This document shows, in pieces, positions 17,101 to 40,015 of a DNA stretch of 64,000 nt. How positions within the stretch are numbered: position 1 is the stretch's first letter; the number at the start of each line of letters is the position of its first letter. The translations under genes and the position numbers were made by a program. The notes beneath the pieces were generated by a model. It had not been told where the DNA came from and searched no databases. It saw only the letters and a program-made list of their open reading frames with translations. The DNA is taken from positions 62,001-126,000 of IMG/VR virus record IMGVR_UViG_3300047382_000771. One strand, written 5' to 3'. This DNA is from a virus.

Positions 17101-19547
17101 CCTACTGTGAGTTTTGCATTAGGGGAGGTTGAGGAATCCAGAGAGCCTTGACCTGTTATAGACCAAGAAGTAAACTCATAACCAGGATCTGGTGTTGAAG
17201 TGATATTAATTACATTATTTATATTATAAACTCCAGAACCTGTTTCTACGCCATTTGAACCTTCGACAGTAATTGTGTAATCTATCAACTCGTAAATAGC
17301 TGTGACTGCAGCGTGTCCTGCACCAACAATAAATGTCGTTGATGATACAGCTGTATTGGAAATTGATCCTGGGCCAGATTTAGACCAAGATACAAATTTA
17401 TATCCAGGGTCTGGGTTAGCACTTAATGAAATTGCGTCTCCTATATTGTAGACACCTGAGCCAGACTGACTGCCATTTGGGCCAATGATTGATATATTAT
17501 AATCTATAGCTGTATAATTAGCGCTGATTAATGCATCTCCTGCACCTACTGTAAATTTGGTTTGAGTTGAGGCAGCTGAAAGTATGGTGCCTGGATCAGA
17601 AGATGACCAAGAGGTGAATTCATATCCAAGTTCTGGCTTGGCTGTTATATCTAAAACATTACCTATATTATAGATGCCTCCGCCTGTTTCTACCCCATTA
17701 GATCCATTTGTAGATATTGTGTAGTCAATAGCTTCATAGATAGCCTCTATGGTGCAGTTGCCGTTTCCAATAACAATAGATGTGCTTCTTGAGGTGCGGC
17801 TTGTAAGGCTTCCAGGTCCAGTTAGTACCCAGTTTTTAAATAAATAACCAGGATTGGGTGTAGCCGTAATATTAATTACATCGTTAATATTATAAATCCC
17901 GCCTCCTGTGGAGCTTCCATTAGATCCTGATAGTATTAGGGTGTAATCAATTGCTTGATAGTTTGCAGTAATTAAAGCATCAGATGAAGATACTTGGAAA
18001 GTAGTTGATGGGGAGTTAGGTTGTGTTATTGATCCCGCGTCTGAGGTAGACCAGTTAGAGAATTCATAACCAGGGTCAGGGGTAGCTGTAAGTCCAGGAG
18101 CACTTAAATATTCAAAGGACCCAGATCCAGTCTCGGTTCCATTATCCCCAGATACTGTGATGTTGTATAGTATTTTTGAGTATGAGGGGTATACCTCAGA
18201 GTTGCCAGCACCAACTACAAATGTTGTGGTTTCAGAACTTGGCGAAGATACTGTGCCGTCTCCTTTTACTATCCATTTGTCAAAATTAAAACCAACCAAA
18301 GCATCGGCGGAAATATTTATAGTATCACCTATGTTGGATACCGTTTTAGTAGTATAATCATTTACTGGGGTGTTGTCAGACTCCCGTCTTGTTGAAGTGG
18401 TAATATTATAATCTATAGCTTCATAAGTAGCTGTTAAGTCAACACTGGAGGTACCTATAGTAAAAACAGTGCTTGCGGATCTGTCGTTTTTAATAGATCC
18501 TGCACCAGAATTTATTACCCATTTTTTGAACTTGTAACCCGCATTTGGGGTAGATGAAATATTAACGGTATTTCCTGTTTTATATTGTCCAGAGCCAGTC
18601 TCTATACCATTACCACCTGTAAGATTGAGTAGGATAATACTCTTTTTATATTTAGCTATAATTTCACACGATCCCGCACCGACAGTAAAATTAGTGGTTA
18701 ATGAAGATTTATTTTCCAGATTACCAGGTCCAGACAATCCCCATTGTGTAAATTCATAACCAGGCACAGATGCGGCAGAAATAGAAAATGTATCACTAAT
18801 ATTGTATATGCCACCTTCTGTTTGAGGACCTAGTCCAGATACTTTTACATTATAATCTATAGCTTCGTAATTAGCTACTATATTTGCATTGCCTGCTCCA
18901 ACTTTAAAATTAGTAGATGATGAAGAAGGGTCAGCTATAGTTCCTGGGCCAGTGAAACTCCATTGTTTAAACCTATATCCTGCAAATGGTTTTGCTGATA
19001 TATTAACTATGTTGGTGATATTGTATACTCCTGAGCCTTTTTCAGAACCATTAGTACCAGAAACATCTATGTCGTAGTCAATAGCTGTATAGCTAGCTTC
19101 AACTTTAGAGTGGAATGTGCCTACTGTAAATTGTGTAGAAGGGGAGGTTTTTTGAGCAACTGAACCTGGGCCGATGACTTTCCAGCTTTTAAATAAATAG
19201 CCAGGATTAGGTGTTGAGGATATTGGGATAGAGGTACCTACTGGAAATGCTCCCGCTCCAGTTTCTACACCGTTGTCGCCATCAATTTCTATGATGAATG
19301 TTGATATTTCAGCTAAGTCATCTGGCCTAAATGAGTTATCAAATGTATCTTGTAATAGATTATCTAATTCAGCTGTTTTTAATCTTCTATTAAATTCCCT
19401 ACCAATATGATTAACATAATAATCTTTTGCGAACTCTCCTCCGTTTTTTAAATATTCCTGAATCTCAACTTCAAGAGCATTATGTTTGCTCGAAAGTTTC
19501 CCTGAATTTCTAAGGGCATGTATTCGGTGGCGAAGATCGTATGACAT
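14169..19547 (-). CDS. Giant repeat fibre/adhesin with glycine-rich tip
   Basis: A 1792-residue protein in three parts. Residues 1-80 are a charged helical N-terminus, probably the virion attachment part. Residues about 83-1450 hold 18 tandem repeats of about 76 residues, each with an AIDYxIxVxGxNGxETGxGxY-type opening, NPGYxFxxW in the middle and STxFTVGAGxxxIxAxY at the end. This is the InlB-B/Flg_new type of beta repeat. The last 220 residues are a glycine-rich domain with long G runs ending in ARLIWGPSRSYPSSNTS, resembling the glycine-rich tips of phage adhesins, in which polyglycine helices display receptor-binding loops. It is probably a long flexible host-recognition fibre. A GTGTAAC motif precedes the start. 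Confidence 0.85.
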   Translation of the reverse strand: MSYDLRHRIHALRNSGKLSSKHNALEVEIQEYLKNGGEFAKDYYVNHIGREFNRRLKTAELDNLLQDTFDNSFRPDDLAEISTFIIEIDGDNGVETGAGAFPVGTSIPISSTPNPGYLFKSWKVIGPGSVAQKTSPSTQFTVGTFHSKVEASYTAIDYDIDVSGTNGSEKGSGVYNITNIVNISAKPFAGYRFKQWSFTGPGTIADPSSSSTNFKVGAGNANIVANYEAIDYNVKVSGLGPQTEGGIYNISDTFSISAASVPGYEFTQWGLSGPGNLENKSSLTTNFTVGAGSCEIIAKYKKSIILLNLTGGNGIETGSGQYKTGNTVNISSTPNAGYKFKKWVINSGAGSIKNDRSASTVFTIGTSSVDLTATYEAIDYNITTSTRRESDNTPVNDYTTKTVSNIGDTINISADALVGFNFDKWIVKGDGTVSSPSSETTTFVVGAGNSEVYPSYSKILYNITVSGDNGTETGSGSFEYLSAPGLTATPDPGYEFSNWSTSDAGSITQPNSPSTTFQVSSSDALITANYQAIDYTLILSGSNGSSTGGGIYNINDVINITATPNPGYLFKNWVLTGPGSLTSRTSRSTSIVIGNGNCTIEAIYEAIDYTISTNGSNGVETGGGIYNIGNVLDITAKPELGYEFTSWSSSDPGTILSAASTQTKFTVGAGDALISANYTAIDYNISIIGPNGSQSGSGVYNIGDAISLSANPDPGYKFVSWSKSGPGSISNTAVSSTTFIVGAGHAAVTAIYELIDYTITVEGSNGVETGSGVYNINNVINITSTPDPGYEFTSWSITGQGSLDSSTSPNAKLTVGAGNCTVEAIYTLIDYSISTDGSNGTETPGPGIHNIGNIVNITATPDLGYLFSNWSTNGDGSITNSSLNNTSYVVNTSDAVLTAIYKAIDYLINFNSTNGTVNSPGIYNINDNINLLSTPDLGYEFVSWSKSGAGTIADTSSASTQFTVGNGDCDISATYNAIDYTITVNGDNGTESLGGIYNINNIVSLTANPDPGYRFSHWSLSGSGVIQNSSITNTNFIVGAGDATITANYVAIPYTISIRGQNGVETAGGSHIINDNFTIEAVPNSGYEFVNWTKSGSGSIANSNSASTSFTVGEGHTTLTANYSAIDYNISVQGDNGTETGSGIYNINDTFSIEAIGNTGYEFSHWSITGTGSLFDSFNKRTTFTVGAGDATIEGTYTLINYELSLQSFTGSTTGSSSFNYQEVVNISATPNLGYEFSHWNISGPGSIGDVNSASTTFIGGDGNAFLEAVFTPIDYTITINGSNSSATGGGVYNIGDVVTISSLPNLGYEFESWSLSGAGQIGPSTPSTTFTVGAGNATINLSVKLIRYNITVSGNQGTQNGDGVNNLSKVMDSKITLSASPNNGYLFAKWVTDGPGTFADPIDPNTEFTTSTGNDNIRALYMVGSIGSPSLFSGNVTASDQSQASVSLTSSTNSSFFNGFTFSGDGIKTITEFVNDWNDSNDPDIIINQGGSVILNQGQTIQMSGGTNPITPQGEEQFTTDGTYRFIVPNHVNSISALAVGAGGGAAGSFGNSTHSGSGGGGGALSYTSSQSVNPGDEITIIVGRGGSGGVGWAKTSGVDGGNTVIKLNNSTILEAGGGKGGAYGSSNATLGGSHITGPNGFRGGYGGPSQYNNGGGGGGGAAGYSGNGGQGSSGNYKNGFNGSGGGGGGGAGQARGGTQSNGGGGVGIYGVGSSGSGGSGSGSTIGKGGSGGSDGSSGGHGGNFGGGGGGAEDDTRANGGLGGVGAARLIWGPSRSYPSSNTSFTPNSYS
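15285..19300 (-). repeat. 18 tandem protein-level repeats (InlB-B-like) in the adhesin
   Basis: Eighteen in-frame units of about 230 bp each are recognised from repeated (A/L)ID(Y)-type openings and NPGY(E/K/L)F(S/T/K)xW cores. DNA identity between units is modest, so the array looks old and diverged rather than recently expanded. The fifth unit has an irregular insertion (RRESDNTPVNDY) and the fourth lacks the AIDY opening. Confidence 0.88.
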
Positions 19548-26186: not shown

Positions 26187-27218
26187 TCAAGAGTTGTTAA
26201 CAAAATCATTTTGGTACATCTTTTCTACTAATTTATTAAAGTCTGTTTTTCTTGTCCAACCTAACTCTGTTTCAGCCATAGAGGGGTCTCCGCAAAGCTT
26301 GTGTACTTCTGCTGGTCTATAAAAATTGGGGTCAACTTCGAAAAATAATTTACCGTCGAGGGTGAAGTATTTTTCATTAACACCTTCTCCTCTTGAGATA
26401 AATGGTATATCTGCGTAAGCGAGACTAAGGTTTAAGAATTCTCTGACAGAGTGCATCTCCCCGCTGGCTAGAATATAATTTTTTGGCGAATCTTGGTTTA
26501 ACATTAACCATACACCCTCCATAAAATCTTCTGCGTCACTCCAATCTCTTTTAGCTTCTATGTTGCCTAATTTAAGTAGGGGCAGTTCGTCTGCATTTGA
26601 GTTTATTGCTTTTTTAAGTTTAGCTATTGAGTGGGAGATCTTCCTGGTGACAAAATCTAAACCCCTCCTAGATCCCTCATGGTTGAAGAGCCAGCCTTGA
26701 ACGGCATATAAACCGTAAGATTCTTTATAAACTCTAACTATGTGCCTCGCTGCACATTTAGCTGCCCCGTAAGGAGATTGGGGGTTTAATGGATGAGACT
26801 CGTTTTGAGGTGTGTACTCTACATCTCCAAACTCTTCAGATGATCCAGCATTATAAAAATTACAATGTGGGGAAAACCTTCTTATGGACTCCAAGATATG
26901 CAGGACTGAGTTTGAGTCTGTCTCCCATGTTTGTATGGGGTAATCCCAGCTCCCAGCAACGAATGACTGTGCTGCAAAGTTAATAAAGTAATCTGGCTGT
27001 ATGTCAATAATAACATCCCTGATACTATGAGCATCGTTTAGGTCCATGTTTAGTAATTGAAATCTGGGCTCTTTCTCTAGATGGAGGATATTACCATGGT
27101 TTTTGACACTCAACCTTCTCGCTGTTCCGTATATCATGTGCTTAGTATTGGCTAGAAGGTAATCAACCATGTGGCTTCCGTCTTGACCTGTAACTCCTGT
27201 GACTATAATTTTTTTCAT
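26187..27218 (-). CDS. gmd: GDP-mannose 4,6-dehydratase
   Basis: A 343-residue short-chain dehydrogenase/reductase that converts GDP-mannose to GDP-4-keto-6-deoxymannose, the precursor of GDP-fucose, GDP-rhamnose and related sugars. NADP binding is shown by TGVTGQDGSHM at the N-terminus; catalysis by S-S-E in AGSSEEFG and Y150-x3-K154 in SPYGAAK; GDP binding by RRGLDFVTRKI. All are diagnostic for Gmd. The ATG at 27218 overlaps the GT11 gene by 4 bp (ATGA); the longer frame upstream of it is rejected. No GDP-fucose synthase was found, so the next step may rely on the host or on a gene outside the window. Confidence 0.95.
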   Translation of the reverse strand: MKKIIVTGVTGQDGSHMVDYLLANTKHMIYGTARRLSVKNHGNILHLEKEPRFQLLNMDLNDAHSIRDVIIDIQPDYFINFAAQSFVAGSWDYPIQTWETDSNSVLHILESIRRFSPHCNFYNAGSSEEFGDVEYTPQNESHPLNPQSPYGAAKCAARHIVRVYKESYGLYAVQGWLFNHEGSRRGLDFVTRKISHSIAKLKKAINSNADELPLLKLGNIEAKRDWSDAEDFMEGVWLMLNQDSPKNYILASGEMHSVREFLNLSLAYADIPFISRGEGVNEKYFTLDGKLFFEVDPNFYRPAEVHKLCGDPSMAETELGWTRKTDFNKLVEKMYQNDFVNNS

Positions 27219-28003
27219 AACATTTGTATCCATTCTTCGGGGATTATATCTCGATAACCAGGACCTTCTGGGCCAAACCATTTAGATGGTGCGATAATTT
27301 TCTTTTGTTTATTTTGGTTTAACCATGCAGCCCACCAGCTAAAACTACTATTTGCGATAATATTGTTTTCACAGCAACTCATGATTTTGAGGTCCTCTAG
27401 ATTGGAGTTACCTTCCATGAATATCATGTTCGGATATTTTAGTGAATTCTTGCACCATTGTATATCATCTGAGAATACGAATATATTACCACTTGGGTTA
27501 ATTTCTTCAAGGGCTTTATTATAATAATCAGCACTTAAATTTAAGTGGTATTTAGGAGCATTTAAATAATCCGTGCGTCTTATATGTATGGAGCAAGATC
27601 CAAGGAAGTCGAAGTTGGTAAACTTAGGGTTTTCTCCAAAATCTAATAAATTAATAATACCCTCTCTATGATGTTTGAAATATTTCTCCGATTGCCAGAA
27701 GCCGTCAAGCAATAGATTGCCATCAAGGGTGCTCAGATCTAGGTGATTGTAGAAATTTTCATCGCTAATTTTGTAAACTTTTTTGCTAAAAAAGTCATCC
27801 ATGATTTGGCCTTCGAATCTATCTATTTTTATTTTCTCAAAGTTTTGAAGGTCAAACGTCCTTGGAGTACAACCCTTGCAACCACCTCTAAAAAAAGAAT
27901 CATCTAGGTATAGGTCTAGTCCGTAATCTAAACTTAATGAATAACCGTAGGCCCATTGAAAGATTTGATTAGCTAGTCCACCTTGTATTTTGGATACTAT
28001 CAT
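27215..28003 (-). CDS. Alpha-1,2-fucosyltransferase (GT11)
   Basis: A 262-residue GT11 enzyme that would transfer fucose from GDP-fucose in alpha-1,2 linkage to galactose, making an H-antigen-type end. Diagnostic features: KIQGGLANQIFQWAYG at the N-terminus, the HxRRxDY motif as HIRRTDY (140-146), FSDDIQWCK, and ANSSFSWWAAWLN near the C-terminus. The ATG at 28003 overlaps the upstream stop (ATGA). It is coupled to gmd, which makes its donor precursor, and lies five genes from an ABO-type transferase. Confidence 0.92.
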   Translation of the reverse strand: MIVSKIQGGLANQIFQWAYGYSLSLDYGLDLYLDDSFFRGGCKGCTPRTFDLQNFEKIKIDRFEGQIMDDFFSKKVYKISDENFYNHLDLSTLDGNLLLDGFWQSEKYFKHHREGIINLLDFGENPKFTNFDFLGSCSIHIRRTDYLNAPKYHLNLSADYYNKALEEINPSGNIFVFSDDIQWCKNSLKYPNMIFMEGNSNLEDLKIMSCCENNIIANSSFSWWAAWLNQNKQKKIIAPSKWFGPEGPGYRDIIPEEWIQML

Positions 28004-28602
28004 ATTTCCACATACCAATTATGGTGACTTAAGACATTAACACCCAGACCCTTAGAGTTGAAGAAACGGTCTACACATTGTGAAACATGAGGGAAGTTAG
28101 GGTGATTGTAATCGTGCCCTGAAAGTATGCCTCCTGACCTTATTTTCGGAAACCAATTTTCTATATCTTGCTTGACAAATTTTTCAAAATGATTCCCGTC
28201 TATGTATACGAAATCCAAAGACGCATCTTCGAATAGTTCGTAGCATTCATTGGATAATTTCCTAATAAGCTCGAATCTATCTCCGTAGAAAGACATTCTA
28301 CCCTTGACCATGAGGTGTAGATCATCTTGCTTCTCTTGTTCTAAATTCCTCGAATCCCCTTTGTATTCGGAATAATTTAAATAAGGATCTATGCCGTAAA
28401 GTTTTGTGATATTAGTTTTATCTAAAATACTAATAGAATGACCACCATAAGCTACACCAACCTCTACCCCGATCTCATAATTATTGTCATTAATTATATT
28501 GGGTATATCGTTATGCCACTCTTTCCATTCCGAAAGATTTTCAGAAGGATATTTTGCAGTATATTTAACTTCGATTTCTTTTTGTTGTTTTTTACTTATC
28601 AT
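28000..28602 (-). CDS. SAM-dependent methyltransferase (class I)
   Basis: A 200-residue protein with a Rossmann methyltransferase core: GVEVGVAYGGHS (motif I, SAM binding), KLYGIDPYLNY (motif II acidic end), LDFVYIDGNHFEKFVKQDI and GGILSGHDYNH (a metal-coordinating DxxH-type pattern seen in the Methyltransf_24 group). It probably O-methylates a sugar or another surface group in this cluster. It lies 6 nt after the GT2 gene. Confidence 0.8.
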   Translation of the reverse strand: MISKKQQKEIEVKYTAKYPSENLSEWKEWHNDIPNIINDNNYEIGVEVGVAYGGHSISILDKTNITKLYGIDPYLNYSEYKGDSRNLEQEKQDDLHLMVKGRMSFYGDRFELIRKLSNECYELFEDASLDFVYIDGNHFEKFVKQDIENWFPKIRSGGILSGHDYNHPNFPHVSQCVDRFFNSKGLGVNVLSHHNWYVEI

Positions 28603-28608
28603 GAGAGG

Positions 28609-29331
28609 TTAAAACATAGACCTTAATTGGGCGGATATTTTCTGAGACTCAAAAGAGTTCTGGGTGTACCAACTGTCTTTAGAGGTTATGTCGTGATTAT
28701 ACTTTAGGCCTGGAACTATATTTAGCTTGAAGTTTTTTTCATTCCTAAAACATAAACATAACACATATAGCACATCAACACCGAGTGGGTTTATTGGGTT
28801 TTTACAAGATTCAATACAAGAGGTGTAAGTGTGTTTGTTGACTAGAAAATTGCCTGTATTAATTAAACACTGGTCAATTGAATCTTTGGAATAAATTAGA
28901 CCCCTGAAATCATCAATATCTAAAGTCCTGCCTGAGTAACGGGAATAATCGAGAGAGGGCGAATTACATTTAGCTAAGCTTGGTAGATAAAAAGTTTTAC
29001 TATCCAATTCACCTGGTAATGAATCTAAATAATCAGTACCGATAATATTGTCAGAGTCGAGTAGAACCACCCAATCATTTGAGGCAAGATCTATAGCTTT
29101 ATATTTATTTAGGAAGGCTCCTAGGTTTTCTGTATTCCTGTGTATTTTTAGCTTTTTAGATCCTATACATTGCACTTGGTCAGATAGGTCATTGAAAATA
29201 CTTGGCTTGGAGTGATCATCTAAAATAATAATTTCATCAACCCTGTCATCGTTTACAACGTTGTGGAAAGATCTAATTGTTTCACTAGACCTATTGTAGG
29301 ATGTGATAGCTAGGGTAATTTTATTTAACAT
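28609..29331 (-). CDS. Family 2 glycosyltransferase
   Basis: A 240-residue GT-A enzyme: KITLAITSYNRSSETIRS at the N-terminus, EIIILDDHSKP (nucleotide-sugar binding), and LLDSDN (DxD-type metal motif). The C-terminal part is divergent, so the acceptor and sugar are unknown. The ATG at 29331 overlaps the upstream methyltransferase stop by 11 bp. Confidence 0.83.
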   Translation of the reverse strand: MLNKITLAITSYNRSSETIRSFHNVVNDDRVDEIIILDDHSKPSIFNDLSDQVQCIGSKKLKIHRNTENLGAFLNKYKAIDLASNDWVVLLDSDNIIGTDYLDSLPGELDSKTFYLPSLAKCNSPSLDYSRYSGRTLDIDDFRGLIYSKDSIDQCLINTGNFLVNKHTYTSCIESCKNPINPLGVDVLYVLCLCFRNEKNFKLNIVPGLKYNHDITSKDSWYTQNSFESQKISAQLRSMF

Positions 29332-29941
29332 ATAATGCATCCCCCCATTCGTACTCTGTCATTTTAGTTTCCTTTCTGGAGAAACCAAACTGGCTTAGGT
29401 AGTAGTCAATTTCATCTATCAGTGCACAGTTTTTATATAAATGTGCGGTGTTGACTTCTGTATAAATAAGGTCTATTGAATTTATTAAATTACCCGCACC
29501 CTTGAGAGCTAAGAGTTCCGCCCCTTGGATATCTATATTTAAAAAGTTATAAGAACTTATGTCAATTGAGTTTTCTTTAATTAAAGAATCGAGACGCTTT
29601 GTCTTCACTTTTATCGTCTCAGTAACATGTATGTGTGGGTGATGTATAGTATGTTTGCCTAAATCAAGTATTGAGGAAGACTCCCCGTTGTTTGTTATAT
29701 GGAAATCTAACTCTTGGTTATCAGTATCTGTAATCGCATAATTAAAGACACACTCAGGGCTTGGTGTATTGTTTGTTTTGCAAATAGATTTGTATTTGGA
29801 AGGGTTAGCCTCAATCCATATGGTGTTTTCTAAACCATGAAGAAGGTAGTCATTCCTTTCCTCCATAAGGTGAGCACCTATATGTATAATACCTTTTGGA
29901 GTACCATACTTAGATACTATATCTTTGAATTTAATTAACAT
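29321..29941 (-). CDS. FkbM-type methyltransferase
   Basis: A 206-residue protein of the FkbM family: IIHIGAHLMEERNDY (motif I), IWIEANPSKY (acidic SAM-binding end), NYAITDTDN, TKRLDSLIKE and NFLNIDIQGAELLALKG, the last being the most diagnostic FkbM motif. FkbM proteins usually O-methylate sugars in surface polysaccharides and natural products. It fits as a tailoring enzyme of the glycan made by this cluster. Confidence 0.88.
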   Translation of the reverse strand: MLIKFKDIVSKYGTPKGIIHIGAHLMEERNDYLLHGLENTIWIEANPSKYKSICKTNNTPSPECVFNYAITDTDNQELDFHITNNGESSSILDLGKHTIHHPHIHVTETIKVKTKRLDSLIKENSIDISSYNFLNIDIQGAELLALKGAGNLINSIDLIYTEVNTAHLYKNCALIDEIDYYLSQFGFSRKETKMTEYEWGDALYVK

Positions 29942-30591
29942 TATAAGATTTTACTTAGGTCGTGCTTCTTAGTATTGAAGTTACTTTCTGAATGAACTCT
30001 ATGAAAGACGAGGCTGATTGGTATATTATGGAAAAGGTAGCCTTTTTTCAATAGCTTTAACCAAAAGTCAAAATCCTCTATTCCATCTAAAGACTCATCC
30101 CAGCCCCCAATTTCAAGTGCGTGTTGTTTTTTGAACACCGCACTAGAATTTGCTGTCTGGTTATCTCCAGAAAGGGATTTGTTTTTTATTTTACTATGCT
30201 CCATAGATAAGTCTGGTTGACCGCATGGTTTATTGTTTTCATCTATGTAAGTTATGAAGGAGCCAATCACATCGAATTTATCAATGTACTTTACCTGCTC
30301 TTTTAGTTTATCTTGATGCCATAAATCGTCGTCATCTTGGATAGCACAAAAATCATAATTAGACTCTTTAATTAATTTATTAAGAGTTTTGGCTTTCCCC
30401 TTGTCGTTAGCATAATCAAAAACCCTAATCCTAGTATCACTAAATGAATTAACTAAATCTTTTGAGTTATCAGTCGTTCCGTTGAACCCTACTAATAATT
30501 CCCAGTCCGTGAAATTTTGATTTAATATAGATTCGATACTTGATTTTATATATTTTTCTCCATTATATGTCGCTAGTAGAATAGAAATCAT
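29941..30591 (-). CDS. Family 2 glycosyltransferase
   Basis: A 216-residue GT2 enzyme: ISILLATYNGEKYIKSSIESIL, WELLVGFNGTTDNS and QDDDDLWHQDKL (DxD metal site), then GGWDESLDGIEDFDFWLKLLKKG, the usual acceptor-side ED motif. This is a standard short GT2 as found in rhamnosyl, galactosyl and glucosyl transferases. Sugar specificity cannot be read. Confidence 0.88.
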   Translation of the reverse strand: MISILLATYNGEKYIKSSIESILNQNFTDWELLVGFNGTTDNSKDLVNSFSDTRIRVFDYANDKGKAKTLNKLIKESNYDFCAIQDDDDLWHQDKLKEQVKYIDKFDVIGSFITYIDENNKPCGQPDLSMEHSKIKNKSLSGDNQTANSSAVFKKQHALEIGGWDESLDGIEDFDFWLKLLKKGYLFHNIPISLVFHRVHSESNFNTKKHDLSKIL

Positions 30592-30593
30592 TA

Positions 30594-31286
30594 CTAAGTC
30601 CTTAGTTCTTTGTGGTTTTTGTCGAGGGCTATTAATCTTGGATGAAACGGAGGTTTAAGACTTTCTCCATAACAGTAACCTGGGTCTAGGATTTTGGTTG
30701 GAGGGTTATCTATCATGTATCTATTAAGGTGACTTTCGTCGTGCCAAATAGCTATGTATTTTTTAGTTAAATCTTTATTAATGTTGCTTGATATTCGATT
30801 GGCCATTCTTAGGTAGGCAGATGAGCTGCCGCCATTAAAACCCCCAGCAAAATACTCCATTGGTTCTGAATCAGATACAAATGCCGAAGAGTCTTTATTA
30901 GTCTCAGGTGTGCCGCGTGTACCGTAGTAACCAGGATGTTGTGTGGCTACTAAATGGCTTAATATTTCCTCACCGACATGATCTCTAAAAATCATATCAG
31001 CATCGCAATAAAATAAATAATCGAATTTAGATAGTTGTTCTTTATTTTTATCAAAAATGTGATACCTACCTAAAGTCATCCAGGGCCAAGGCTCATGCTT
31101 CGTTAAGATAAAGTTCACAACTCTATCAGTATTTTTTGTATCGCATATAGTATCAGTAAAAATACAATACTCTACATCTATATTGTTTTGTTTTAAAAAA
31201 TATTTGTCCGCACTATGTATTAGGGGTTGTATAAATTTTTGGTATTTATTTGTAGCAATAATTAATAAGCCAACCTTAACACCCAT
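30594..31286 (-). CDS. GT6 glycosyltransferase, histo-blood-group ABO type
   Basis: A 230-residue soluble enzyme of the family that adds Gal or GalNAc alpha-1,3 to an H-type (Fuc-alpha-1,2-Gal) acceptor in vertebrate A and B transferases. The matches are strong: DADMIFRDHVG (D95, D97; DVDMEFRDHVG in the human enzymes), QHPGYYG (HPGFYG), FAGGFNGGS (LGGFFGGS) and WHDESHLNRY (181-190), whose glutamate corresponds to E303 of the human enzymes. The DxD metal motif is kept. Glycines at the positions matching 235 and 268 are those of the human A (GalNAc) enzyme, though family-wide specificity is not that simple. It overlaps the GT25 gene by 11 bp. Confidence 0.9.
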   Translation of the reverse strand: MGVKVGLLIIATNKYQKFIQPLIHSADKYFLKQNNIDVEYCIFTDTICDTKNTDRVVNFILTKHEPWPWMTLGRYHIFDKNKEQLSKFDYLFYCDADMIFRDHVGEEILSHLVATQHPGYYGTRGTPETNKDSSAFVSDSEPMEYFAGGFNGGSSSAYLRMANRISSNINKDLTKKYIAIWHDESHLNRYMIDNPPTKILDPGYCYGESLKPPFHPRLIALDKNHKELRT

Positions 31287-31914
31287 AGTTAACCACCCTT
31301 CCTTCTATATCACTAAAATCATTAGCTTGCACCCCGCATCTTTTTAATAAATACCATTTATTTTCAATAGATTGAAAAGATTTCCAAGTTTGGTCTATAG
31401 CATGTAGGTTAGGGTCTTCTCCGTTTTTTAAGGCATCTATTGATGCTTGTATTTTAGGTACGATCTTTTCACAAAAAGAAAGCCTAATAACATACGCAGA
31501 TGTAGTTTGAACATTATCGGATTTTAAAACTAAGCCTGATGAATCGATAGGTTCGCCTTTGGTCACATCATTATAGGATAGTTGGCATATATTAAAGTCT
31601 GGGTAACGTTCTATGAAATAATTCCACCTAGAAAGTAATTCACTAGTTTCTATCACTGGTATAAAATCATCCTCTAGAACAATAATTGTTTTATAGTCTT
31701 TCTCTATAGCGTCTTTGTATATATTTAAGTGGGATTGAGCGCAACCCACACTACGTAGGGGTAGTGTGGGTTGCTTTGATGTATCTATGGCTGGATATCG
31801 AGTAAAAAATCCCTCCTTAAAATTAAAAAAAGGTAGAACTAATTTGAGGGTGTGGCGATTCCTGTCCTCCCTTTTGTCTAGGTTTAAATAATAACAGTGA
31901 TCAATTTCATTCAT
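31276..31914 (-). CDS. GT25-type (LPS) glycosyltransferase
   Basis: A 212-residue protein of the LPS galactosyltransferase family: CYYLNLDKREDR at the N-terminus, VGCAQSHLNIYKDAI and TIIVLEDDF (the ED-D metal motif). The ending AIDQTWKSF and GVQANDFSDIEG also fit. The ATG at 31914 overlaps the upstream gene's TGA and is preferred to a TTG four codons earlier. A perfect 14-bp inverted repeat lies inside the coding sequence. Confidence 0.85.
   Translation of the reverse strand: MNEIDHCYYLNLDKREDRNRHTLKLVLPFFNFKEGFFTRYPAIDTSKQPTLPLRSVGCAQSHLNIYKDAIEKDYKTIIVLEDDFIPVIETSELLSRWNYFIERYPDFNICQLSYNDVTKGEPIDSSGLVLKSDNVQTTSAYVIRLSFCEKIVPKIQASIDALKNGEDPNLHAIDQTWKSFQSIENKWYLLKRCGVQANDFSDIEGRVVNYGC
31741..31774. 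other. Perfect 14-bp inverted repeat with 6-nt loop inside a gene
   Basis: The arm GCAACCCACACTAC (31741-31754) is repeated exactly in inverse at 31761-31774, with six bases between. It is GC-richer than its surroundings and codes for QPTLPLRSVGC in the GT25 gene. No T-run follows on either strand, so it is not a standard terminator. Confidence 0.9.
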
Positions 31915-32575
31915 AATTACAAGCAATGCCTACGCACATATCTTCGCACCCTCCCATGAGATTTTTACAGTCTTCGAACAAATCTTTTTGTTTAATGATT
32001 TTACTTACATATCTTTTACTTAAACAGTATCCACCGCCAGCCCAGTAATGATCTGGGAGTCCACTTAGGGAGTGGTTTGATATGAATATTTCTGGTAGTA
32101 CAAATAGTTTTTTAGATGAAGCCCAGTTCCTGAAGCCTTCAATCGTGCTTCCAATTATGGGTGTGAACCCACCGTAATCTTCAAACATAGTTTCATCGTG
32201 AAAACATTTCTTGAAATTATCGAAAGAAAATAAAGGGCTTGTTTGATTGTGTAGATTGTCTATGATTCTGCAGTCTATTTTAAGCAAGAAGTCAAATTCA
32301 AATATAGTTGAACAACAAGATAGCATTTTGAATGTTTTAATCGATAGGTTATCGTAAGACTCCTCGGTATTTAACCTTAAAACTTTAGTACTTGCGTCAT
32401 AAAGGAAGTCATTTTTATCAAGGGATGGATCTGCATAATAAGAAATTATTGTTATATTATCTTTTGACTCGCAATACTTATACCAATCAGATTTCTTTAT
32501 TTTATCTACTGAGCCAATATCTTTCTCGCAAGAATTTATACATATTAGTATTTCACTTGTGGATAAAATAGACAT
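31907..32575 (-). CDS. GT31-like glycosyltransferase
   Basis: A 222-residue protein with the layout of beta-1,3-galactosyltransferases: FDFLLKIDCRIID where GT31 enzymes have a KxDDD metal motif, YWAGGGYCLSKRYVSKI (matching YxxGxGYxLS) and GGCEDMCVGIAC (matching EDVYVG). Only the first aspartate of the DDD motif is kept, so metal use or activity may differ. The ATG at 32575 is preferred over a GTG 16 codons upstream that lies deep in the preceding gene. Confidence 0.65.
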   Translation of the reverse strand: MSILSTSEILICINSCEKDIGSVDKIKKSDWYKYCESKDNITIISYYADPSLDKNDFLYDASTKVLRLNTEESYDNLSIKTFKMLSCCSTIFEFDFLLKIDCRIIDNLHNQTSPLFSFDNFKKCFHDETMFEDYGGFTPIIGSTIEGFRNWASSKKLFVLPEIFISNHSLSGLPDHYWAGGGYCLSKRYVSKIIKQKDLFEDCKNLMGGCEDMCVGIACNYE

Positions 32576-33305
32576 CACTTCTTTCCTCCTCGTACTCTTT
32601 ATACTTACTACACACAGGGTCACCCATTACAAATTCCTTCTCAGATAAAACTGACCTAAGCAAATATTGGCATATCCACATGTCGGCATTAAACTCTGGC
32701 TCACCCATTTCCTCCCTCACCTCCTTGAATTTAGAATAAAACATGAGCATATCATCATAACTTCCGCCCACTACACCCATATTAATTAAATCCCAATCAT
32801 GGTAGTTTAACATAAACTTAAACCTATCATCCCAACCGAAGTGATCATGAACTTTGATATAAGGGAAGGAATCTAGGGGTATAGAATCCTTACAGCAAAA
32901 ATAAGACATACTAGGCATCTCAGAGATAAGGGTAGATGGATCCCTGACAACCTTCACATCTGAACCATCCGTATGAAAGACCACATCTGGTTTATCTTTT
33001 AGATTTAGCAAAAAATCATTAAAGCAGAAAAACCTCCAGTCATTATTGGAGTAGGTGCCAACATCTACTTTTTCGAAAGAAACTTGATCAGAGCTATATT
33101 CCTGCACGAATTCATCTGATAATTCGTCGTGAAAAACCACACCATTAATATCGCTGGAGTGAATTGAATCATACCAACCTTTAATATAATTAATATCTTG
33201 TTGCATAACCCTACCATCTGGACCCCTACCCACAACTGCGTTATCCGATGGGTCATTAGGGTGAGGCTTTGACGAAAAGTAAGAGGTTAGAATTAAGGTT
33301 TTCAT
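32553..33305 (-). CDS. GT-A-fold glycosyltransferase-like protein
   Basis: A 250-residue protein. VVFHTDGSDVKVVRDPSTL looks like the metal-binding strand of GT-A enzymes, followed by DLINMGVVGGSYDDMLMFYSKF, which matches the N-x-G-(V/I)-x-G motif of nucleotide-diphospho-sugar transferases, and FNADMWICQYLL. The specific family is not recognised. It is the first gene of the leftward glycan cluster, with its start about 120 nt from the predicted leftward transcription start. Confidence 0.6.
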   Translation of the reverse strand: MKTLILTSYFSSKPHPNDPSDNAVVGRGPDGRVMQQDINYIKGWYDSIHSSDINGVVFHDELSDEFVQEYSSDQVSFEKVDVGTYSNNDWRFFCFNDFLLNLKDKPDVVFHTDGSDVKVVRDPSTLISEMPSMSYFCCKDSIPLDSFPYIKVHDHFGWDDRFKFMLNYHDWDLINMGVVGGSYDDMLMFYSKFKEVREEMGEPEFNADMWICQYLLRSVLSEKEFVMGDPVCSKYKEYEEERSDVYFIHK

Positions 33306-34448: not shown

Positions 34449-35528
34449 ATGAAAAATTTAATATTCTCAGCACCTATCAATTCTTTAAGTTTCGGAAATG
34501 TCTCTTATAATTTCTTAAGAGAATTTTATAAGCTCGGAGTCAATTTAAAGTTCTTCCCCATAGGTAAGGATTTAGATTTTTCTGCGTTTGATAATACTGA
34601 CGAAGATTTCAAGCAGTGGATAGTTGATGCTTACAACTCTAGGCTAAAGAAAGTTTCCAGAGAAATTCCGTTTTTAAAAATGTGGCATTTGAATGGTTCC
34701 GAATCTGGCATAGGGGACAGAAGGCACTTGTACACATTCCACGAAACAGACGAGGCAACCGAAGAAGAAAAATCCATATGCTCGGTTCAAACTAAGACTA
34801 TTTTTTCTAGCAGTTTTTCTAGAGATATTTTTTCGCAAGAATGTGACAACTGTCATTTTGCCCCAATTGGATTCGATGAGGATTTTCACGAAACAAACAA
34901 AAAATATTTAAGTGGTAAAACCCATTTTGGATTAATGGGTAAATGGGAGAAAAGGAAACATACAGCAAAAATAATTTCATTATGGGCAGACAAATATGGA
35001 GACAATAAAGATTACCAATTAACCTGCTGTGTAGGTAATCCATTCCTTCAAGACGATCAATTCAAAGAGGCTATTCAGTCTGCTCTTAAAGGTAAGAAGT
35101 ATAAAAATATCAACTTTTTACCAAGACTAAAGACGAACTCAGAAGTTAATGAATTTCTAAACTCTATCGATATAGACCTAAGTGGACTTAGCGGGGCGGA
35201 AGGCTGGAATCTTCCATCGTTCAATGCGTCTTGTTTAGGTAAGTGGAGTATAGTTTTAAATTCTACAGCTCATAAAGATTGGGCTACGAAAGATAATTGC
35301 ATTTTAGTGGAACCCATAGGTCAAGAGCCTTGCTATGACGAAGTATTTTTCAAGGAAGGCAATGCCTTCAACCAAGGATCCATCAATGCATTCTCTGATG
35401 AATTATTTTATAAAGCTATCGATTCAGCTCTATCCAAAAATGGTACCTATAATAAAAATGGATCATCATTGAAGGAAAAATTTAATTACACTAAAACCGT
35501 TAACACTATTATAGACATTATATCATGA
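34449..35528 (+). CDS. Glycosyltransferase, GT-B fold (GT4-like)
   Basis: A 359-residue protein: an N-terminal Rossmann part (NLIFSAPINSLSFGNVSYNFLREF), a linker with FHETDEATEEEKSICSVQTKTIFSSSFSRDIF, then the sugar-nucleotide half with FGLMGKWEKRKHTAKII (the usual GRWE-RK-type start of GT4 C-domains) and DIDLSGLSGAEGWNLPSFNASCLGKW, matching the E-x7-E region of GT4 enzymes. Donor and acceptor are unknown. It ends in a 4-bp overlap (ATGA) with the next gene. Confidence 0.75.
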   Translation: MKNLIFSAPINSLSFGNVSYNFLREFYKLGVNLKFFPIGKDLDFSAFDNTDEDFKQWIVDAYNSRLKKVSREIPFLKMWHLNGSESGIGDRRHLYTFHETDEATEEEKSICSVQTKTIFSSSFSRDIFSQECDNCHFAPIGFDEDFHETNKKYLSGKTHFGLMGKWEKRKHTAKIISLWADKYGDNKDYQLTCCVGNPFLQDDQFKEAIQSALKGKKYKNINFLPRLKTNSEVNEFLNSIDIDLSGLSGAEGWNLPSFNASCLGKWSIVLNSTAHKDWATKDNCILVEPIGQEPCYDEVFFKEGNAFNQGSINAFSDELFYKAIDSALSKNGTYNKNGSSLKEKFNYTKTVNTIIDIIS

Positions 35529-35731
35529 AACAAATAGGCAATATTAAAATTGAAAATAAAGAAATTCTGCTATGTTGTGGGAGAGGTAGATGCCCCTCCA
35601 TCTCAAGAGATGAATCTTCTAACGAAAAAGAAATGTTCTTACTCAAAGATGACTTCGGGGGTTTCGTAAAACTTGACAGAGAACAACTAAATGCAATCAA
35701 AGAAGCATTTAATAACTTAGATGCTATTTAA
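35525..35731 (+). CDS. Small cysteine-containing protein of unknown function
   Basis: A 68-residue protein with LLCCGRGRCPSISRDE near the middle and DDFGGFVKLDREQLNAIKEAF at the C-terminus. Three cysteines in CCGRGRC could bind a metal. I have no family name for it. Overlaps on both sides show tight translational coupling in the rightward operon. Confidence 0.65.
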   Translation: MKQIGNIKIENKEILLCCGRGRCPSISRDESSNEKEMFLLKDDFGGFVKLDREQLNAIKEAFNNLDAI

Positions 35732-36020
35732 TCTTACAGCTTGTCTGGGGTTAATGTGGGTCCTGAAGTATGGAACCATACTAAACACTCCAAGAAACTT
35801 TCTGTCATCTAAGAGTAAAACCTTAAAGGAACTACTTAGTTGTAGCTTATGCTTAGGTTTTTGGGTTGGTGTTTTGTTTGGCTACCTAGAGTATCATTTA
35901 AATGGAGTAAATCCACTATATGTCTTATACCTAGCTTTTTCCTCTGCCGCAGTATGCTGGTTCTTTGACATCTTGTTCGAGCTGATAACCCTATCTTGCG
36001 ATAAAATAGACCCTAAATAA
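35721..36020 (+). CDS. Small membrane protein (DUF1360-like)
   Basis: A 99-residue protein with two or three hydrophobic segments and a central KELLSCSLCLGFWVGVLFGY, which matches the C-x2-C-x-G-(F/W)-W-x-G pattern of the DUF1360 membrane family. Function unknown. It overlaps the previous gene by 11 bp and the next one by a TAATG junction. Confidence 0.65.
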   Translation: MLFNLTACLGLMWVLKYGTILNTPRNFLSSKSKTLKELLSCSLCLGFWVGVLFGYLEYHLNGVNPLYVLYLAFSSAAVCWFFDILFELITLSCDKIDPK

Positions 36021-36403
36021 TGCCAATGTACATATTCCAGAAACCTGAAACCGAAGAGTATACTGAGGTTTTTTTCTCAATGAATGATGAGAAGAAATAT
36101 ATAGACGACGACGGTGTTGAGTGGAAGAGAGTATGGAGCCTGCCCCAACTTTCGACTGAGGCATCTATAGACCCCTGGGACAATGCTGACTTTGTAAATA
36201 AAACTTCAAACACCAAGGGAACACTTGGGGATATGATGGACAGAAGTCAAGAATTGTCTCAAAAAAGAGCTGAACAGAATGGGGGTGTAGACCCTGTTAA
36301 GGAAAAATACTACGAAAACTATAGTAAGCAAAGAGGTGGAGCTGTTCACCAAGACAAAGAAACCAAAACTTTTGAGAATAAACATATAAAAATAGACCTA
36401 TGA
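36020..36403 (+). CDS. Conserved-looking phage protein of unknown function
   Basis: A 127-residue protein starting MPMYIFQKPETEEYTEVF, followed by DDGVEWKRVWSLPQLSTEASIDPWD and DFVNKTSNTKGTLGDMMDRSQELSQKRAEQNGG. This layout (a FmdB-like opening without the zinc cysteines, then WKRV and a helical DRSxELSxKRAE part) is one I associate with phage hypothetical proteins. The function is unknown. Confidence 0.65.
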   Translation: MPMYIFQKPETEEYTEVFFSMNDEKKYIDDDGVEWKRVWSLPQLSTEASIDPWDNADFVNKTSNTKGTLGDMMDRSQELSQKRAEQNGGVDPVKEKYYENYSKQRGGAVHQDKETKTFENKHIKIDL

Positions 36404-36954
36404 GTATACAAATTTATAAACCAAATAAAAACAATAATGGATTCGCTTTTAATTTCGCATTAGGATTTGAAAGAAAGAATAAAGAACCAGTACTTTATGT
36501 ATCAGCTATCGCCCAGCACAGTTGGGATGCAAAAAAACGATTAGGCTCATTCACCGCCAACAAAGATAATCCAGAAAAAAACATAAACCTAAAGTTTAAT
36601 GAATTCGAATGTGGATCAATTATAGACGCTATTGAGAGAAGGTACGAATATAGTACGTTCCATAAATTTGAAGACAACAAAACCACCATCAAATTTAGTC
36701 CCTGGGATAAAAAAGTTAAATCTAGTAAATTTAATCCCTCAACTAAAAGTTATGATGATTACGAATATATTTCTCCATGCTTCGGTTTATCTATTACGAA
36801 AAACGGCAACAACACTTTTAAGATCCCACTAGAACCTGGGGAAGCTTTCTGCGTTAAAGAGTATATTAAAAATATTATACTTAAAACATACGCGAAAAGA
36901 GATCGTGAAAGGCTCAAGGAATATTCTACCCCCTCGGAGGATTGCCCTATATAA
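36400..36954 (+). CDS. Protein of unknown function, possible nucleic-acid binder
   Basis: A 184-residue protein: FAFNFALGFERKNKEPVLYVSAIAQHSWDAKK, NINLKFNEFECGSIIDAIERR, TTIKFSPWDKK and a second strand-rich half (FGLSITKNGNNTFKIPLEPGEAFCVKEYIKNIIL). Repeated beta strands ending in a long helix recall Whirly-like or PC4-like single-strand-binding folds, but this is an impression and not a family match. It overlaps both neighbours by 1-4 bp. Confidence 0.55.
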   Translation: MSIQIYKPNKNNNGFAFNFALGFERKNKEPVLYVSAIAQHSWDAKKRLGSFTANKDNPEKNINLKFNEFECGSIIDAIERRYEYSTFHKFEDNKTTIKFSPWDKKVKSSKFNPSTKSYDDYEYISPCFGLSITKNGNNTFKIPLEPGEAFCVKEYIKNIILKTYAKRDRERLKEYSTPSEDCPI

Positions 36955-38858
36955 TGAAAAAAAAGAAAATACTTTTCCACAGCAACTTTAGTAGAGCATA
37001 TACTGGCTTCGGGAAAAATGCAAAAAATGTCTTATCCTACTTGTATAAAACTGGTAAGTATGAAATTGTAGAAGCCGCCAATGGTCACATCAAGACATCT
37101 CCCAAGCTTTCTAAAATGCCATGGGAATGTATCGGCACCTTACCAGATGATCCATCTAAAATAGAAATGATCAACAAAGATCCAGCCCTAGCCAGGCAGG
37201 CTGGGTATGGGTCTGAAACTATAGATGAATTAATTAAAGAAATTAAACCTGATATATATATAGGTGCTGAAGATGTATGGGGGTTTAATAATTTCTGGAA
37301 TAAAAAATGGTGGAACAAAATAAATTGTGCTATATGGACCACTATAGATTCTCAGCCAATACTTCCCCTAGCTGTAGACGCTGCACCCAAAATTAAAAAC
37401 TACTTCGTCTGGGCTTCGTTCGCCGAAAGAGAGATGAAGAAGTTAGGTCACGACCATGTCAAAACTTTAAGGGGCGCAATTGATACGGACTTTTATTTTA
37501 AGACCATCAAGTCTTACCGTAAAAATTTAAGACAAAGATTCGATATATCTGATGATACGTTTGTTATAGGTTTTGTTTTCAGGAACCAGTTAAGGAAAAG
37601 TGTCCCGAACTTACTTGAGGGGTATAAATTATTCTGTAAAAAAAACCCTAAAGTAAAAGCAAAGTTATTACTCCATACATCATGGTCTGAGGGTTGGGAT
37701 ATCCTAAGGCTACTAAAAGAAAAAGGTATACATCACTCAAATGTATTAACGACATACTACTGTTCAGCTTGTAAACGTTACCATGTAAAACCTTTCTCTG
37801 GAGAAGAAAATGATTGTCCTTACTGCAAAAGTAAAAAAACTTTCAGTACAACTAATGTTAAAAACGGCGTATCTGAAAATCAGCTTAATGAAGTTTACAA
37901 TTTAATGGATGTCTATTGTCACCCATTCACGAGTGGGGGGCAAGAAATTCCAGTGCAGGAAGCCAAACTCGCAGAGCTTGTAACCCTTGTAACTAATTAT
38001 TCCTGTGGTGAAGACTGTTGTACGGAAGAAAGCGGTGGACTACCTCTTGAATGGTCTGAATACAGGGAGCCAGGAACTCAATTCATTAAAGCTAGTACTA
38101 GCCCAGAAAGCATTTCCAATCAATTGGAAGTTGTCTACAATATGCCCCCAGAAGATAAAGAAGAAATGGGTAAAAGAGCTAGAGATTTTGTTTTAAATAA
38201 TTACTCCATAGATGTTATTGGTCCTAAGATAGAAGAATTTTTAGATAATTTACCAGAAATAGACTGGGATTATGATTTCTCTGAAGAGCAAAGAGACCCA
38301 AACTACGATCCGCCAGAAATTGAGTCAGACGCAGAATGGTTAATTGATATATATAAGAATATATTAAAAGTTTCAGTCGATAAAAATGATGATGGATTAA
38401 AGCATTGGGTTCAACAAATTCAAAAAGGCGGTAAAAGATCAGATGTTTTAAACTACTTCAAGAAGGTTGCTAAGAAAGAAAATAAAGATATAGAAGGGTC
38501 TAACTTTGAGGACTTACTGGACGACGAAGGTGCCGACAATAGGATAGCTGTGGTTTGTGAAAAAAATGCAAGAGATGCAATCATAGTAAATAGTTTCTTA
38601 ATTAACCTCCAGGAACTATATCCAGAAGATAAAATTTATGTAATCACTGACCCTAAATTTTTTCCCTTAATAGAGGATAACACTAACTGCTACAAAACAT
38701 TACCCTACATTAAGGAAATGGATTCCCCTTACTCATTAGAAGGTAGAGCTGATCACCCAGGTTATTTTAAAATTGCATTTTATCCAAGTGCAACTACTGA
38801 TAAATTTCAGTCTTTCACACACAATACAAAAGATAAAAATATTTTCAATATACTATGA
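36954..38858 (+). CDS. Multidomain glycosyltransferase: GT4 with zinc-ribbon insertion, DUF4214-like, GT9 N-half
   Basis: A 634-residue protein. Residues 1-460 form a GT4-like enzyme (FHSNFSRAYTGFGKNAKNV, GFVFRNQLRKSVPNLLEGY, then HPFTSGGQEIPVQEAKL with the donor-binding glutamates). A zinc ribbon is inserted at C270-x2-C273 and C288-x2-C291. Residues about 463-512 resemble DUF4214 (DIYKNILKV, D-GLKHWVQQIQKGGKR). The last 105 residues (RIAVVCEKNARDAIIVNSFL) look like the N-terminal half of a GT9 heptosyltransferase, continued by the next gene. The ATG at 36954 is in a TAATG overlap. It ends with an ATGA overlap. Confidence 0.75.
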   Translation: MKKKKILFHSNFSRAYTGFGKNAKNVLSYLYKTGKYEIVEAANGHIKTSPKLSKMPWECIGTLPDDPSKIEMINKDPALARQAGYGSETIDELIKEIKPDIYIGAEDVWGFNNFWNKKWWNKINCAIWTTIDSQPILPLAVDAAPKIKNYFVWASFAEREMKKLGHDHVKTLRGAIDTDFYFKTIKSYRKNLRQRFDISDDTFVIGFVFRNQLRKSVPNLLEGYKLFCKKNPKVKAKLLLHTSWSEGWDILRLLKEKGIHHSNVLTTYYCSACKRYHVKPFSGEENDCPYCKSKKTFSTTNVKNGVSENQLNEVYNLMDVYCHPFTSGGQEIPVQEAKLAELVTLVTNYSCGEDCCTEESGGLPLEWSEYREPGTQFIKASTSPESISNQLEVVYNMPPEDKEEMGKRARDFVLNNYSIDVIGPKIEEFLDNLPEIDWDYDFSEEQRDPNYDPPEIESDAEWLIDIYKNILKVSVDKNDDGLKHWVQQIQKGGKRSDVLNYFKKVAKKENKDIEGSNFEDLLDDEGADNRIAVVCEKNARDAIIVNSFLINLQELYPEDKIYVITDPKFFPLIEDNTNCYKTLPYIKEMDSPYSLEGRADHPGYFKIAFYPSATTDKFQSFTHNTKDKNIFNIL

Positions 38859-40015
38859 GCCACATTATAGAAGAGTATGCTAAAAGTCTTGGCACTAAGC
38901 CAGGCAAACCTCAAATTGATTTACACTTTTATCCGATTTCTCTTGATAGGTATGTGACTGTTGACACGAGCTCTGTAGACTCATTAAATTATCAACACTT
39001 CGAGTCTGTAATAAATTTAATAAAACAATACGACCCTTCTATAAAATTTGTAGACATAACAGAGAGCAGGGAAAAAGGCTTAGAGTATTTTGATAAATCC
39101 TTATTAGGTAAGTGTTCTTACAGACACATTTCTTATATAATTTCTAAAGCAGAATTACATCTTTGCGTTGATACATTCTCTTCTTACATAGCTTCAGCCT
39201 TTAATGTTCCCACCGTTTGCTTGTACGGACCTATGTATCCAGAAAACAGCAAGCCTATTTGGGACGGTAAATTAGTTTGCTTATTTGAGTGCCCCACTGA
39301 CACAAAGCCAAGCTATAGCGGCAAAGACCCCAACTCAATCATTAACCTAGTAAGTCCAGAAAAAGTTGCTAAAGAGTGCTTGTCTTTAATTGGTGTTGAA
39401 AATGACTTAGATTGTTTCACCACAATTAATATAGGTAAATACTACAAAGATAAAATATTAGAAGTTATACCAGATTTCGTTCCCCACCAAGAATACAAGC
39501 CAGACAGACTAGTTAACCTGCGCTGTGATTATAATTTCGATCAAGAAATAATTTCTAAATGGATGCAGTTTAAGGTAAACTTAATGCTAGATAAAGCCTT
39601 AGATATAGATCTGATTGTTAAATACGCAAATAATATAGCTGGCATTACCCTTTTCTTGGGAGATAAATCCTTAACCAGTAGTTATGTCTCCACACTACAA
39701 ACCTTAAATTTAAACCCGTCACTAATCTGTAAAGATGAGTCTATAATATCAGATATTAGATTAGACTTTTTTGGTTCAGATGTAGAGGAATATAAAGTTA
39801 AGTCTAAAAAAGATCTTGACTTTGTAGATGAAGTATGCGATAATTGCTTCTATGATAGTAATAAAATACTCAAGTCTAAAAACAAAATATACAAGAGTAG
39901 AGCTGCATGGAAAATTGGTCAAACAACAGACAAGCTCACACCAATCATAGATTCCCCCGATTTTTGGGAAGAAATCGAACACTTCAATATCTATAAATAT
40001 GACAGGAAAAACTAA
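38855..40015 (+). CDS. GT9-like C-terminal half plus extra domain
   Basis: A 386-residue protein. Residues 1-180 match the donor-binding half of GT9 (ADP-heptose:LPS heptosyltransferase-like): YRHISYIISKAELHLCVDTFSSYIASAFNVPTVCLYGPMYPEN, where D-(S/T)-x5-(H/A)-A-x4-P-x-(V/I)-x-L-(Y/F)-G is the family signature. Its N-terminal half is encoded at the end of the preceding gene, in another frame. Residues 200-386 form a second domain of unknown type with NLRCDYNFDQEI and several cysteines. Four-base ATGA coupling suggests both chains are made together and may assemble. Confidence 0.65.
   Translation: MSHIIEEYAKSLGTKPGKPQIDLHFYPISLDRYVTVDTSSVDSLNYQHFESVINLIKQYDPSIKFVDITESREKGLEYFDKSLLGKCSYRHISYIISKAELHLCVDTFSSYIASAFNVPTVCLYGPMYPENSKPIWDGKLVCLFECPTDTKPSYSGKDPNSIINLVSPEKVAKECLSLIGVENDLDCFTTINIGKYYKDKILEVIPDFVPHQEYKPDRLVNLRCDYNFDQEIISKWMQFKVNLMLDKALDIDLIVKYANNIAGITLFLGDKSLTSSYVSTLQTLNLNPSLICKDESIISDIRLDFFGSDVEEYKVKSKKDLDFVDEVCDNCFYDSNKILKSKNKIYKSRAAWKIGQTTDKLTPIIDSPDFWEEIEHFNIYKYDRKN

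Follow-up and report, generated by a model that had tools for sequence, protein, structure and literature searches.

Does a bacterial virus encode the synthesis of a blood-group-like sugar end? The question is raised by an operon in a 64,000-nucleotide stretch (bases 62001-126000, hereafter the window) of the 200,094-base record IMGVR_UViG_3300047382_000771, which belongs to a large uncultured bacterial virus. A preliminary description had placed genes for GDP-mannose 4,6-dehydratase (Gmd), a GT11 alpha-1,2-fucosyltransferase and a GT6 enzyme resembling the human ABO transferases within 5 kb in a single operon, and had read them as an H-to-A/B-like histo-blood-group pathway. All three genes lie where it had put them, on the minus strand, and they do share an operon, which is larger than described: ten tightly packed genes run from 33305 down to 26187 with intergenic gaps of -71 to +6 bases and encode seven transferases, two methyltransferases and Gmd (Table 1). 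Of the three, GT6 comes first, followed by GT11 and finally Gmd, the reverse of the earlier listing; 2.6 kb and four genes lie between GT6 and GT11. We put at roughly 55% the probability that the soluble enzymes of this ten-gene cassette make or reshape, in the cytoplasm of the host, an oligosaccharide that ends A-antigen-like by way of Gmd, GT11 and GT6.

Hidden Markov model searches placed the putative ABO-like protein inside GT6, with a PF03414 score of 141.5 bits (E 3.3e-41; Pfam cut-off 25) and an NCBIfam Gltr_6 score of 198.8 bits, under the subfamily cut-off of 250. Its best sequence relative in the PDB is BoGT6a of Bacteroides ovatus (E 4.6e-48), followed by human ABO transferases, and its AlphaFold model (predicted local distance difference test score, pLDDT, 93.7) matches BoGT6a with a template modeling (TM) score of 0.93, again followed by the ABO transferases. 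The GT-A fold carries a DAD motif of the DXD type at residues 95-97 and the catalytic glutamate within WHDE at residues 181-184. The GT6 assignment is borne out by profile, motif and fold, and the protein is a predicted alpha-1,3-N-acetylgalactosamine (GalNAc) or galactose (Gal) transferase. The GT11 protein, whose likely start is the ATG at 28003, scores 87.6 bits against PF01531 (Pfam cut-off 23.9) and has its HIRRTDY sequence at residues 140-146, where the HxRRxD motif is conserved in the alignment. A PDB sequence search with GT11 returned no relative; among the PDB fold matches listed for its model (pLDDT 91.2), 50 of 50 are fucosyltransferases with the GT-B fold (best E 2.5e-06, TM about 0.5). 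The earlier GT11 assignment is thus upheld, and the enzyme is a predicted alpha-1,2-fucosyltransferase. Gmd, which likely starts at the ATG at 27218 and not at 27281, matches PF16363 with 341.5 bits and Gmd structures in the PDB with E down to 2.8e-79.

GT6 had been described as rare in phages, with P-SSM2 given as a case. The rarity does not hold: 71 phage records in GenBank contain GT6 relatives, and scanning IMG/VR by pattern gave at least 536 GT6-encoding stretches. Rarity of the GT6-GT11 pairing was likewise rejected, as P-SSM2 and eight further cyanophage genomes or groups carry the pair; P-SSM2 does encode GT6, as stated, but gmd, fucose synthase and GT11 are also there. For a wider comparison, we derived GT6, GT11 and Gmd profiles from the collected loci, the viral GT6 loci sampled being those nearest the window GT6. 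Once near-duplicates had been removed, GT11 was present within the retrieved stretch in 66 of the 74 distinct viral GT6 loci, and no viral locus with one gene of each family had the two on opposite strands. As controls we took GT6-free loci retrieved through Gmd or GT25, and the comparison was split into three size strata according to how many other glycan genes a locus contained. GT11 was present/absent in 11/0 GT6 loci vs. 5/36 controls (Fisher p = 7e-8), in 39/4 vs. 15/11 (p = 0.002) and in 16/4 vs. 1/4 (p = 0.02); the association lies well above that of control clusters in every stratum, and the pairing is non-random. The reverse relation is weak, with GT6 in 8 of the 66 GT11-centred loci. 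This one-sidedness is as expected if GT6 needs the GT11 product, a dependence that we infer here. Cellular (bacterial) GT6 loci contained GT11 in 38 of 60 cases. No paper that we found in the open-access literature states a GT11-GT6 association in phages, with subscription journals largely outside this coverage. The combination is genuine but is shared by hundreds of other phages, among them a cyanophage whose annotation dates from long ago. The window operon thus adds one more case of a phage glycan module that is widespread but hardly studied, and is not a one-off; the surprise lies in the scale and one-sidedness of the association, which has apparently gone unremarked, and not in its presence in the window phage.

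Comparison with known systems shows how the module varies. The P-SSM2 cluster (PSSM2_257-271) is like the window operon in carrying, all on a single strand, gmd, GT11 and GT6 as well as transferases of GT2 and GT25, and its GT6 is 45% identical to that of the window, with DXD and an AGG donor triplet. P-SSM2 is a Kyanoviridae cyanophage and itself encodes a GDP-L-fucose synthase (PSSM2_258, 462 bits), whereas the window phage has none and, unlike P-SSM2, possesses a lambda-J-like tail tip and no psbA. A cyanophage origin of the window was rejected on the lack of a psbA-type gene and the presence of the lambda-J-type tail protein; the helicase and terminase of the window phage have only distant relatives among isolates. 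In B23, S-CAM9, Bellamy, S-PRM1, SynMITS9220M01, DSL-LC02 and DSL-LC03 the end of GT11 meets the beginning of GT6 on the same strand, and in ACG-2014f GT11 lies two small genes from GT6, also on the same strand. The GT6 enzymes of these cyanophages group apart, in a clade marked by a QGC donor triplet, and are about 27-34% identical to the window GT6. Two GT6-bearing cyanophages were counted in 2014 (PMC3961637). For S-SCSM1, an alpha-1,2-fucosyltransferase, gmd and fucose synthase have been reported and interpreted as modifying the cell wall (PMC9602691), and GT6, gmd and fucose synthase have been listed for DSL-LC02 and DSL-LC03 with GT6 read as DNA-modifying (PMC10611076).

Among bacteria, the characterised GT6 enzymes WbnI of Escherichia coli O86, BoGT6a and BgtA of Helicobacter mustelae all use Fuc-alpha-1,2-Gal (PMC4202792), on which they make B- or A-like ends (PMC4202792, PMC3961637). 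E. coli O86 has the same family pair as the window, WbwK (GT11) with WbnI (GT6), whereas BoGT6a and BgtA represent GT6 alone. Chlorovirus PBCV-1 also resembles the window phage in encoding Gmd and glycosylation machinery, with a fucose-containing glycan, and differs in infecting a eukaryotic alga, in having a solved capsid glycan and in possessing its own fucose synthase; the available part of that account (PMC4691112), on which this comparison is based, mentions neither GT6 nor phages.

The donor sugar and metal use of the window GT6 can be estimated from its active site. Four positions (176, 235, 266 and 268) distinguish the human A enzyme from the B enzyme; the former has Gly235, Leu266 and Gly268 and the latter Ser235, Met266 and Ala268 (PMC4202792). 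In our alignment the window GT6 has Gly, Ala and Gly at the sites corresponding to ABO 235, 266 and 268, as does BoGT6a, and its donor triplet, A-G-G, is also that of BoGT6a, which transfers GalNAc onto 2'-fucosyl-lactose (PMC3961637). Because the AGG triplet is shared with this GalNAc enzyme, an A-like product is likelier than a B-like one. WbnI, BoGT6a and BgtA have been described as NXN and mostly metal-independent (PMC4202792, PMC3961637), whereas the window enzyme is DXD; metal use is predicted for it, as with the DXD enzyme of Parachlamydia, which requires metal (PMC3961637). Our best guess is thus an A-like, metal-dependent step. Judged by alignment columns, DXD occurs in 124 of 126 phage GT6 sequences; the sampled cellular GT6 comprised 44 NXN and 34 DXD sequences.

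In the phylogeny that we made with P-SSM2 and bacterial GT6, the window enzyme falls within a phage clade of 13 (Shimodaira-Hasegawa-like approximate likelihood ratio test, 96). The P-SSM2 group lies in the same larger DXD region of the tree, and the cyanomyovirus enzymes with the QGC triplet form another group. The GT6 of Dependentiae and Chlamydiae group in a clade of the DXD type, and the NXN enzymes fall almost entirely into a single clade that includes BoGT6a. The closest cellular DXD GT6 (loci L120-L150) are mostly from Dependentiae/Babeliales and Chlamydiae, bacteria living in protists. The origin of vertebrate ABO is not settled by this tree, in which one ABO sequence sits on a long branch and its placement has an approximately unbiased test value (p-AU) of 0.54. 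A bolder proposal is that tailed phages carry a widespread H-to-A module making GalNAc-alpha-1,3-(Fuc-alpha-1,2)-Gal on virions or hosts and, together with amoeba endosymbionts (Dependentiae, Chlamydiae), are the main DXD-GT6 reservoir and a possible source of vertebrate ABO. It is compatible with the near-universal DXD of phage GT6, the essentially single NXN clade and the p-AU value, and we regard it as improbable.

Several observations weigh against a chain from Gmd through GT11 to GT6. With seven transferases in the operon, GT6 may not act on the GT11 product, and the two could be independent cassette members working on different sugars that co-occur by virtue of large glycan clusters, with no H-to-A chain. 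The spacing of GT6 and GT11 inside clusters, compared with that of other genes, is not shorter than chance (P 0.31), and a physical coupling closer than cluster membership was rejected on this value; moreover, GT11 is common in GT25-centred loci regardless of GT6 (22 of 29; 6 of 7 with GT6), and sister phages differ in cassette content. We nevertheless hold independence to be rather unlikely, given that the GT11 excess at GT6 loci is found in every size stratum and is one-sided, and that the three characterised bacterial enzymes all act on Fuc-alpha-1,2-Gal. The role of Gmd is contested by further data. Its family identity is upheld by Pfam and the PDB, but against the NCBIfam equivalog TIGR01472, its best family there, it scores 313.3 bits, below the cut-off of 415. 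The absence of a GDP-fucose synthase from the window, noted earlier, extends to the whole 200,094-base record, in which neither the Epimerase family nor a GDP-L-fucose synthase model detected one and the single Epimerase-family gene is Gmd itself; a complete viral GDP-L-fucose pathway was therefore not found in this record, which may be a fragment. Across the lineage of the window phage, most contigs that carry Gmd have it next to DnaB, with GT11 and GT6 missing near it, so that Gmd may serve other sugars. Its product might then become another GDP-6-deoxysugar such as D-rhamnose, which PBCV-1 Gmd alone also makes as GDP-D-rhamnose (PMC4691112), with fucosylation relying wholly on host GDP-fucose. 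This explanation is doubtful in view of the position of Gmd directly after GT11, whose stop it overlaps by 4 bases, and of two sister phages (L041 and L042) that have GT6, GT11 and gmd in window-like order and a fucose synthase directly after gmd, all four within 6 kb. Least probable by far is that the transferases modify phage DNA against restriction, as claimed for the PF03414 proteins of DSL-LC02 and DSL-LC03 (PMC10611076). Phage transferases that glycosylate DNA are well known (PMC13216743), but the 200-kb record has no thymidylate-synthase-family hydroxymethylase, on which ground DNA hypermodification was rejected; the fold and donor-site residues of the window GT6 are of the oligosaccharide-transferase type, and the link to GT11 and the GDP-fucose genes would be left unexplained.

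The sister phages also bear on how the locus evolves. In 35 stretches with a close DnaB homologue (the window and 34 loci), Gmd recurs near DnaB and the neighbouring transferases vary, although it was through Gmd that most of the loci had been retrieved, which biases its frequency. Gmd occurs without fucose synthase in L044, L045, L047 and the window; L047 keeps the first four genes of the window operon in order, including a homologue of the first gene in the equivalent place. The locus thus gives the impression of a glycan cassette that changes in content, set next to a sugar-nucleotide gene that recurs. DnaB-adjacent Gmd with differing transferases (e.g., L041, L326, L330, L332, L360) resembles a variable serotype locus. 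Near relatives of the operon on different contigs of metagenome 3300023109 (L278/L003 and L006) are 94% identical in GT25, 97% in GT11 and 80% in GT6, so that GT6 looks faster-evolving or replaced. In L004 (4447-6852) and L005 (8312-10717), GT6 is part of an open frame of about 800 amino acids, where it is apparently fused to some other N-terminal domain, and GT11 follows directly.

Under the preferred reading of an A-antigen-like end, Gmd would convert GDP-mannose into the 4-keto-6-deoxy intermediate, from which a host fucose synthase would complete GDP-L-fucose. GT11 would add alpha-1,2-fucose onto Gal, and GT6, with a divalent metal and most likely host UDP-GalNAc, would cap Fuc-alpha-1,2-Gal with an alpha-1,3 sugar to give the A-antigen-like end, while the remaining transferases and the methyltransferases would make and modify the rest of the glycan. 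Of the H-to-A/B-like pathway first described, the families, folds, motifs, operon and GT6-GT11 link stand and the rarity falls; how the steps follow one another, and which donor, acceptor and target are used, we infer. No membrane-like segment was found in any of the ten operon proteins, and no PF02397 lipid-carrier initiating enzyme is encoded in the 200-kb record; the operon enzymes should therefore act in the cytoplasm, and their substrate should be a host-made lipid-linked glycan or a protein. We give a host envelope glycan about an even chance of being the target and a virion protein a smaller though substantial one; some other target is improbable, and DNA more so. Virion glycans have been reported on mycobacteriophage capsid and tail, as cited in PMC12619734. 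The phage would benefit from an altered receptor or surface as met by other phages or its own progeny, with superinfection exclusion, receptor masking and virion coating as possible outcomes; the mimicry suggested earlier is conjectural.

Table 1. Genes of the operon, in order of transcription, and of the neighbouring sugar-gene set in the window.
Feature	Coordinates	Strand	Basis
Transferase-like protein, weak, first operon gene	32553..33305	minus	phrog_1579 8.9e-07; Pfam: no match
Galactosyl_T-like protein, weak, listed start GTG	31907..32623	minus	PF01762 25.6 bits vs. cut-off 23
GT25-like glycosyltransferase, listed start TTG	31276..31926	minus	PF01755 4.3e-08
GT6 glycosyltransferase, 230 amino acids	30594..31286	minus	PF03414, PDB match, predicted structure
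GT2 glycosyltransferase	29941..30591	minus	PF00535 8.2e-25
FkbM-family methyltransferase	29321..29941	minus	PF05050 8.5e-20; TIGR01444 above cut-off
GT2 glycosyltransferase	28609..29340	minus	PF00535 9.4e-14
Methyltransf_24 methyltransferase	28000..28602	minus	PF13578 1.9e-15
GT11 fucosyltransferase, 262 amino acids	27215..28003	minus	PF01531, HIRRTDY, fold matches
Gmd-like GDP-mannose 4,6-dehydratase, divergent, 343 amino acids	26187..27218	minus	PF16363, TIGR01472, PDB matches
phrog_2170 glycosyltransferases, two	34449-35528, 36942-38858	plus	PHROG match
Heptosyltransferase-looking protein	38855-40015	plus	PHROG: no match

The Methyltransf_24 enzyme probably acts on a sugar of the glycan. 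Divergently oriented to the operon is a second sugar-gene set (34449-40015, plus strand), interleaved with small genes. Elsewhere in the window, a gene on the minus strand (14169-19547) encodes a 1792-amino-acid protein with about 20 divergent repeats of the GSNGxETGxGxYNIGD type and a glycine-rich C-terminal part that matches phrog_4474; it may be a fibre or surface protein and is a candidate glycan carrier.

If GT6 acts on the GT11 product, hundreds of aquatic phages would encode the synthesis of blood-group-like ends. Genes annotated merely as glycosyltransferase or, once, as DNA-modifying would thereby gain a testable function, and variation of phage or host surfaces would be tied to defined sugars. 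Additionally, glycan synthesis would gain prokaryotic GT6 enzymes that are metal-dependent, and the wider sampling of the family would help toward settling the origin of the vertebrate ABO gene.

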